Shown here piece by piece: positions 13,429 through 14,896 of a stretch of 39,471 bases of DNA. Under the pieces are notes generated by a model. That model did not search any database, was not told where the DNA came from, and was given only the letters and a program-made list of their open reading frames with translations. Both the position numbers and the translations under genes were made by a program. Every line of letters begins with the position of its first letter. Position 1 is the first letter of the stretch. Source of the DNA: a virus; IMG/VR virus record IMGVR_UViG_3300037119_001690, positions 1 to 39,471 of that record. One strand, 5' to 3'.

Positions 13429-13941
13429 TTAGGCGACGACCGACCAGTCGGCGGCCAGCATGTCGGTTTGACTCGCCAACCACCCCGGCAACATCGCGCG
13501 TCGCCCTTCGGCGTTGATCGTCCACATGTCGATGTGCGGCAGGATCTCGCACGCGTCTTGCCCGAGCGCTTCGCGGTACGGCGTCCCCTCGCGCAACTGC
13601 GCCGACGGCGTGCCGGGCACCAGCACCAGCCACATGCCCTTGCCGTTCCACCCGGCACGCGCAACCTTCTGCCCTGCCTTGAGCATCACGAGGGCGTCAC
13701 CGAACGTCATGCGCGCCGTGGTGCGGTAGGCGTTGTCGAATTGCTCCTTCGGGCTCCAGCTGACGTAGCCTGCGTGCGCAGGGTGGTTCGGCTTGCCGCC
13801 GTCCAGGTACTCCACCAGGTAGCCGTCGTCGGCGCCGTTCTCGTCGGCGGGCAACGTCCACCCCCGGTAGACGTTGTAATCGGCCCGGTTCATCGGGACG
13901 GCGGCGATCAACTTCGTGCCGATGTAGGTTTGGCTGTCCAT
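13429..13941 (-). CDS. tad2: Tad2-like (DUF2829) protein, predicted anti-Thoeris factor, with extra N-terminal phage domain
   Basis: 170 residues from ATG 13941. Residues about 79-170 carry the DUF2829 signature: TFGDALVMLKAGQKVARAGW, NGKGMWLVLVPG, ILPHIDMW and the closing PGWLASQTDMLAADW. In characterised Tad2 proteins this domain binds the cyclic ADP-ribose isomer made by Thoeris TIR enzymes and so blocks the defence. Residues 1-73 (YIGTKLIAAVPMNRADYNVY, RGWTLPADENGADDGYLVEY) form a separate module common in phage proteins. The family is clear; the activity is inferred. It is in the leftward block between a zinc-finger-like protein and the HTH gene. Confidence 0.82.
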   Translation of the reverse strand: MDSQTYIGTKLIAAVPMNRADYNVYRGWTLPADENGADDGYLVEYLDGGKPNHPAHAGYVSWSPKEQFDNAYRTTARMTFGDALVMLKAGQKVARAGWNGKGMWLVLVPGTPSAQLREGTPYREALGQDACEILPHIDMWTINAEGRRAMLPGWLASQTDMLAADWSVVA

Positions 13942-13957
13942 GGGTTCTTCTCCTGTC

Positions 13958-13988: not shown

Positions 13989-14369
13989 TCAATGCAAGTC
14001 GCGCTGGGTGATCACGGTGAACTCGCCACCACCCATCCGGTCCATGAAGACCCGCAGGGCAGCGTTGCGGCCGCGCTCGTATGCCGCGCGCTCGGCTGGC
14101 GTCAGCGCCTTGCGGCCACGCTCGGGAGGGATGCGGGGTGACCAGTTCGCACCGAACTCCACGGCGCCGCCCTTCTGTCGTGGCACTTCGAGGTGCACGA
14201 CGTAGCGCTCGCTGACCGGGAAGATCGCGATGAAGGGGCGCTCGCCGGGTTCGTCGGTGATGAAGCCGTGACCGTCGCACCTGGTGCACAGGTTCATCAG
14301 CTCGCCGAACTTCGCGCGCATGCCATCGCCGATGCCGTTGCCCTGGCACTGGGCGCACATCAGCCGCAT
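13989..14369 (-). CDS. Small protein with DnaJ-type CxxCxGxG zinc motifs
   Basis: 126 residues from ATG 14369, which has GGAGG just upstream (a second ATG at 14360 overlaps the rusA stop and is the alternative). CAQCQGNG and CTRCDGHG near the N-terminus are two CxxCxGxG half-sites, the pattern of DnaJ-like zinc ribbons. The rest includes PPERGRKALTPAERAAYERG and ends FTVITQRDL. Probably a small zinc-binding nucleic-acid-associated protein; the role is unknown. It overlaps rusA. Confidence 0.7.
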   Translation of the reverse strand: MRLMCAQCQGNGIGDGMRAKFGELMNLCTRCDGHGFITDEPGERPFIAIFPVSERYVVHLEVPRQKGGAVEFGANWSPRIPPERGRKALTPAERAAYERGRNAALRVFMDRMGGGEFTVITQRDLH

Positions 14370-14896
14370 GTCGCCTCCCGGATCGGGAACGGTGCGTCGG
14401 GGCCTTGCGGGTTTTCCCATCTCACCGCGTGCGTGGGCAGCAGTTCAGCCTGCGGGCTGGCCGGCAGCGCCAGCGGCGTGATTGTCACCACCACGCGGGC
14501 CTCGCCGTCCGGCTCCATGCGCTGCGAGTGCAGCTCACGCACCCACTTGTCGTCCTCGATGGCGATGCCCTTGAGGGCGTCGAGCAGCACCTTGTTGGCG
14601 TTGTCCAGGTCGATGCAGCGGACGTCGTCGTCCCAGGTCAGCGGCGCGACACGGGCCCGCTTCACCCAGTCCTGCGGACGGTGCGGGTACAGCGCGATGT
14701 CGATTCGCACGCGGCCGGCCAGTGGCTTGCCGATCGCGCACAGGACAGCGGCCTGTTCCACCTGGCGGCGGTACGCCTGCGCCTCGGTGCTCGGGTGCGT
14801 GATCGCCATCGGCTTGCGCGTGCCTTTCGGCGTCACCACGCGCGTCGTCCAGTAGCGGTTCGCGCTGATCGGGTACGGGAGGGTGAGCGTGATCAC
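14360..14896 (-). CDS. rusA: RusA-family Holliday junction resolvase
   Basis: 178 residues from GTG 14896 (GTGA overlap with the preceding gene). The N-terminus ITLTLPYPISANRYW and the block CIDLDNANKVLLDALKGIAI then EDDKW are the RusA signature; D96, D98, K102 and D115/D116 match the catalytic Asp and Lys spacing of E. coli RusA. It resolves branched DNA during replication and recombination, before or during packaging. The C-terminal 40 residues extend beyond the usual 120-140-residue core. Confidence 0.9.
   Translation of the reverse strand: MITLTLPYPISANRYWTTRVVTPKGTRKPMAITHPSTEAQAYRRQVEQAAVLCAIGKPLAGRVRIDIALYPHRPQDWVKRARVAPLTWDDDVRCIDLDNANKVLLDALKGIAIEDDKWVRELHSQRMEPDGEARVVVTITPLALPASPQAELLPTHAVRWENPQGPDAPFPIREATCG

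Follow-up and report, generated by a model that had tools for sequence, protein, structure and literature searches.

The window analyzed here is the whole of a 39,471-nucleotide stretch of viral DNA (IMG/VR record IMGVR_UViG_3300037119_001690, positions 1 to 39,471). On its minus strand, between positions 13429 and 13941, lies an intact open reading frame, with its ATG at 13941 and its stop at 13429-13431. The features of the gene are as follows.

13429..13941, minus strand: coding sequence, 170 aa, fusion of an N-terminal module (N-module) with a Tad2 domain (PHROG 872; N4 gp49-like); from the open reading frame, Pfam, PHROG and predicted structure
13948..13954, minus strand: Shine-Dalgarno-like AGGAGAA, 6 nt before the ATG; read from the sequence
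13720..13941, minus strand: N-terminal module, aa 1-74; from conservation and predicted structure
13435..13710, minus strand: Tad2-like domain PF11195, aa 78-169; from Pfam and a fold match to 8wjd
13630..13653, minus strand: GWNGKGMW, aa 97-104, the loop between beta1 and beta2, which in solved Tad2 borders the ligand pocket; from conservation and the model (PMC12043709)
13483..13632, minus strand: variable insert of the Tad2 domain, aa 104-153, exchanged among close relatives; from pairwise comparisons
13444..13482, minus strand: WLASQTDMLAADW, aa 154-166, pocket segment made up of the beta4-alpha3 loop and helix alpha3; from conservation and the model (PMC12043709)

Upstream of the gene, on the same strand, are a RusA resolvase gene and a DUF1376 replication-type gene, which bears out the siting among replication genes that had been read from the sequence; the cluster is of the early type, and the gene itself stands near late genes of a podovirus. 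Its upstream neighbor (13989-14420, minus strand) encodes a small protein with a weak match, under the Pfam cut-off, to a DnaJ-like zinc ribbon. Scans with PADLOC and NCBIfam gave no match, and megablast over 8-20 kb matched the window to no named phage at the nucleotide level.

The first-pass annotation had assigned the C-terminal half to DUF2829/Tad2, and this identity is upheld by Pfam, by solved relatives and by fold. Residues 78-169 match PF11195 with E=1.5e-22 (80.4 bits against a cut-off of 25, profile positions 1-73 of 73), and the only relatives of solved structure returned by phmmer are chains of Tad2 and AcrIIA7: the best are SptTad2 (2e-12), HgmTad2/AcrIIA7, SPO1 Tad2 and ModTad2. 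Structure prediction followed by superposition on Tad2, which had been proposed as a check, gave a full-length AlphaFold2 model (91 relatives; pLDDT 95.2, pTM 0.80) in which residues 75-170 superpose on SptTad2 (8wjd) at 2.9 A over 92 residues (Z 13.2), the scores for the Hgm, Myroides and SPO1 proteins being Z 10.5-11.9. The C-terminal domain is thus alike to SptTad2, HgmTad2 (AcrIIA7), SPO1 Tad2 and ModTad2 in fold (Z 13.2 to 10.5), in its loop motifs and in sequence (34-42% identity). The long insert is shared with the Spt and Hgm proteins, whereas the sequence of that insert is the window protein's own; known Tad2 structures, moreover, are without the N-module (no PDB sequence matches it).

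In solved Tad2 proteins the ADPR pocket is formed by loops beta1-beta2, beta3-beta4 and beta4-alpha3 together with helix alpha3, and a cyclic-dinucleotide pocket lies in an insertion between beta2 and beta5 (reviewed in PMC12043709). The pocket residues are kept in the window protein (GWNGKGM, WLASQTD..ADW) and no loss was seen: R95, W98, W154, Q158, D160 and W166 are invariant across the 91 relatives and other residues of the loop motifs nearly so, and W98, N99-M103, W154, A156-Q158, D160, D165 and W166, all invariant or nearly so in that set, are all present here. Depending on the member, Tad2-family proteins bind gcADPR, His-ADPR or cyclic dinucleotides, His-ADPR being the ligand of ModTad2 (PMC13299392). 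Judged from its sequence, the predicted protein is most likely a phage nucleotide-signal sponge: fold, motifs and gene neighbors make it likely that the Tad2 domain acts stoichiometrically, and the defense it targets may be Thoeris or CBASS.

The relationship to AcrIIA7 raises a different reading, namely that the Tad2 half is an anti-CRISPR and not a nucleotide sponge. HgmTad2 and AcrIIA7 are the same PDB chain (8kbi), and the anti-CRISPR label has been given to several homologues. However, the partner domains and gene neighbors described below all belong to nucleotide-signal evasion and not to CRISPR, and AcrIIA7 itself was crystallized with 1',2'-cADPR and cGG (title of 8kbk); we regard this reading as highly improbable.

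The extra N-terminal module had also been noticed, and residues 1-74 indeed constitute a strongly conserved, confidently predicted unit separate from the Tad2 domain. Its pattern is YIGTK..A.PM.R..YN..RGW.LP.DE....GYLVEY.DGG..N....GY.SWSPK..F..AY, and when modeled alone it yields a small beta-alpha-beta-beta-alpha domain with pLDDT 96.6. The module has no match in Pfam and no credible relative in the PDB by profile or by fold; its closest fold resemblance is to chromodomains, at noise level (Z 2.6 over 44 residues, Foldseek E 4.6) and with no profile match. That the module might be Acb4 (PF13876, 'N4 gp49/Sf6 gp66') was rejected, there being no match up to E=10. The name of that family is a trap: Pfam calls it 'N4 Gp49', yet it is N4 gp48 that matches, and gp49 is the module-Tad2 protein (L088:2606-3459). 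On the open-licence texts surveyed the N-module is a so far unnamed domain, although a prior description may exist.

The fusion of Tad2 to a second phage domain is real, but it is not unusual. PHROG 872 spans both domains (residues 4-169 against profile positions 14-171 of 172, E=9.6e-57); matches were found in 362 phage records, 90 of which cover 80% or more of the protein, and a scan of viral contigs returned at least 592 viral stretches encoding relatives. The window protein is an ordinary member of its family, and module-Tad2 is the usual arrangement in a large family to which gp49 of coliphage N4 belongs; the window protein and gp49 correspond in both domains along their full length (41.7% identity). 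The two differ in that the Tad2 insert of gp49 is shorter, and in that N4 has as neighbor gp48, a proven Acb4, whereas no Acb4 gene – and no second sponge gene of any of the kinds sought – was detected within the window. In three large viral contigs (L135, L137 and L138) module-Tad2 proteins are extended at the C terminus by a further, unassigned domain of about 110 aa.

The module is not confined to Tad2 proteins. A search of named phages with the module alone recovered proteins whose C-terminal halves are PF21825 (Burkholderia phage CSP3, a jumbo phage) or PF13876 (crAssphages). A scan of genomes, one per species and seeded only with the most conserved module motif (a seed on which the partner counts depend), yielded 80 loci, spread over Pseudomonadota, Bacteroidota, Bacillota, Spirochaetota and others. 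Only four Pfam partners occur in these 80 proteins: Tad2 (49), PF21825 (22), Acb4 (PF13876; 8) and the Acb2/Tad1 hairpin (4), some proteins bearing two of the families; the hairpin partners are Tad1 (E=3e-34 to 8kbb). When profiles made for this analysis were applied to the motif-seeded set, one or more of the four families turned up in 71 of its 73 distinct ORFs. This is a fairer figure than that for all sets pooled (256 of 265 distinct ORFs with a known partner), since partner sequences had served as part of the seed for the other sets.

A further partner, the RyR domain, was pointed to by a structure search of viral models: Yersinia phage TG1 encodes the module and an above-cut-off RyR domain in one frame, and the module-RyR fusion is covered to at least 80% in 14 phage records. 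Phage RyR proteins are the RyDEP anti-Thoeris family, which cleave or bind 2'/3'cADPR (PMC13232231), and PF13876 is the Acb4 sponge family (PMC11722364). The proteins of phage TG1 and Pectobacterium phage CB4 thus have the N-module in common with the window protein (E=3e-8), but their C-terminal domain is RyR/RyDEP (PF02026); similarly, crAssphage and clostridial module-Acb4 proteins (PHROG 9467) share the N-module, but end in Acb4 (PF13876) and not in Tad2. Used as a query in the viral scan, the crAssphage Acb4 fusion found no relatives.

Across these partners the consensus of the module is unchanged (G-T-K, A-x-P, G-Y-x-V-x-Y-x-D, G-Y-x-S-W-S-P-K-x-x-F-x-x-A-Y). Longer chains also exist: module+PF21825+Tad2, module+Tad2+PF21825, module+Acb4+Tad2, Acb4+module and Acb4+module+PF21825. 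Since the module is N-terminal in some chains and C-terminal to Acb4 in others, it is tolerated at either end. Tad1, Tad2, Acb4 and RyDEP are unrelated families for which action on nucleotide immune signals (binding or cleavage) has been shown experimentally; the module is therefore joined to four unrelated signal-acting families plus PF21825, and as an association its devotion to signal evasion is plain. The first-pass annotation had suggested that the fusion might change the ligand choice of Tad2. Because the same module is found on Tad1, Acb4, PF21825 and RyR, this is unlikely to be its general function.

Separate sponge genes also lie beside module genes. Within the fetched flanks, 60 of the 265 distinct module ORFs have a separate sponge ORF, always on the same strand, within 150 bp in 46 cases and encoding Acb4 in 51; the Acb4 count is evidence of clustering and, having no background rate from random phage loci, is not a calibrated enrichment. 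In N4, the gene for gp48 (PF13876) shares a single base with the start of the gp49 gene, and gp48 has been shown to function as an Acb4 sponge and to trigger the Panoptes system (PMC12657230). Among hosts, Thoeris (ThsB-TIR) was weakly and at most suggestively raised, at 9 of 32 compared to 22 of 185 gammaproteobacteria (Fisher p 0.03, the groups being unmatched for genome size and taxon), and SMODS in 5 of 32, a count that has no control group.

What, then, does the module do? One answer is that the module too soaks up a nucleotide, a signal that its partners do not cover, so that each fusion would combine sponges for several ligands in a single chain. The set is rich in tandem fusions of different sponges (PF21825+Tad2, Acb4+Tad2, Acb4+module+PF21825), the module is found at either end of Acb4, and it occurs alone in Pectobacterium phage Possum (71 aa) and in the T7-like Aeromonas phage JELG-KS1 (69 aa). 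Possum and CB4 have nearly identical genomes, and at the same locus CB4 encodes module+RyR and Possum the module alone (L362 and L360), RyR being cleanly present or absent in frame with DNA 95-98% identical on both sides, so that the RyR half is missing and the module retained. Yet in the sampled sets the module is almost never alone (256 of 265 with a known partner), Tad2, Acb4, Tad1 and RyR also occur without it, and it has no fold match to a nucleotide-binding domain. A second answer is that the module is a targeting or assembly adaptor, which by binding itself, another sponge subunit, or a host or phage partner raises avidity or places the sponge near the source of the signal. The same module sits on proteins that, according to the literature, differ in symmetry (Tad2 tetramer, Tad1 hexamer, Acb4 tetramer, RyDEP dimer), the Acb4 neighbor genes suggest partner complexes, and chromodomains – the weak resemblance noted above (Z 2.6, 44 residues) – are peptide binders; that resemblance, however, is at noise level and unsupported by any profile, and standalone modules would have no cargo. 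Binding of a signal by the module and assembly or placement of the sponge carry about equal weight, each a serious possibility that falls somewhat short of even.

The standalone modules bear on one more interpretation. Those of Possum (L360:1501-1716) and JELG-KS1 (L361:1195-1404) are labeled 'putative capsid decoration protein', and a jumbo-phage protein (L084) bears a similar note: were the module a structural decoration domain of the capsid, fusions would put sponges on virions. But the labels are notes by other annotators, that of Possum referring back to N4 gp49, and the genes of the window, CB4 and Possum are among replication genes and not head genes. We think this very unlikely.

If the module does not set ligand choice, the variation may reside elsewhere. 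Comparison of close relatives points to the insert of the Tad2 domain. In 157 pairs with modules at least 85% identical, mean identity is 87% for the Tad2 core and 89% for the tail, but 45% for the insert; in the 100 of these comparisons with inserts below 50% identity (mean 25%), mean identity is still 90% for the module, 84% for the core and 85% for the tail. One pair (L206 and L209) has identical modules and identical tails, and inserts that are 33% identical. The same is evident in the DNA: for this pair identity is 96% in the module, 95% in the core, 59% in the insert and 92% in the tail, and for L009 and L079 it is 97, 97, 49 and 88%, where unrelated flanks in the same alignments give 45-50%. 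Between GWNGKGM and WLASQ the insert is swapped in the manner of a cassette among otherwise almost identical proteins, in L206, L208 and L209, in L009 and L079, and in L022 and L180. Because the dinucleotide pocket of solved Tad2 lies in the insert, its exchange seems to be how phages alter the choice of signal, and the ligand variation of the family more likely sits there, as far as sequence comparison can tell. Such swaps on near-identical backbones provide natural sets for mapping loop sequence to signal.

Together these data favor, with good probability, a two-domain protein of phage nucleotide-signal evasion, in which a Tad2 sponge is coupled to an N-module dedicated to evasion. The Tad2 domain would fold, and presumably tetramerize, as in the SPO1, Spt and Hgm proteins, and its pockets would be built from the GWNGKGM loop, the WLASQTD..DW segment and the rapidly exchanged insert, the last of which would set ligand choice; the immune nucleotide held in them would be a cyclic ADP-ribose isomer, His-ADPR or a cyclic dinucleotide of CBASS. 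The N-module – here on Tad2, elsewhere on Tad1, Acb4, PF21825 or RyR – would be a separate domain devoted to nucleotide-signal evasion: in our preferred reading a self-sufficient accessory, either ligand-binding or concerned with assembly and targeting, that would widen or strengthen sequestration. We consider it somewhat probable, with less assurance, that the module is a general domain of phage counter-immunity attached to unrelated sponges and degrading enzymes; domains fused to it, such as PF21825, the DYAWxWHCNIAM domain and the L090 domain, would then be candidate neutralizers of nucleotide signals, and the module may itself bind an immune signal. Tad1, Tad2, Acb4 and RyDEP came from separate screens; if the proposal is true, one small shared domain is a common denominator of phage nucleotide-signal evasion and a sequence handle by which further sponges can be found by fusion, PF21825 first. 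For the laboratory phage N4 it designates gp49 as a second candidate sponge gene beside the proven Acb4 gene gp48.

Several partner domains are without assigned function. PF21825 (crAss001_48), the second commonest partner of the module, is a helical hairpin as predicted from sequence, is unassigned in both Pfam and PHROGs, and is a candidate new signal-binding domain; examples include L083, L084, L089, L158 and L250, and it also occurs with Acb4 in PHROG 3934. The idea that it is a distant Acb2 was rejected: an alignment profile found no Acb2 PDB chain, the probability against T4 Acb2 relatives was 0.3%, and no relation was detected at the sensitivity of the profile searches used. Another C-terminal half, found in L090 (2001-2522; AEMAVVIYGTYGGVFHVESTVSGVEALGVMALGERTM), is without assignment, and named phages yielded no relative. 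Pfam likewise has no match for one more partner domain, DPxYAWxWHCNIAMxxxDxGxxHxxANxxAARFMxLxFGVDT (DYAWxWHCNIAM), which is present in L082 (798-1340), L114, L141, L142 and L363, as well as in jumbo and T4-like phages. Finally, in L294 and L292, genes for module-PF21825, Tad2 and Tad1 – and in L294 also for PF21825 – lie close together, forming a cluster of sponge genes.
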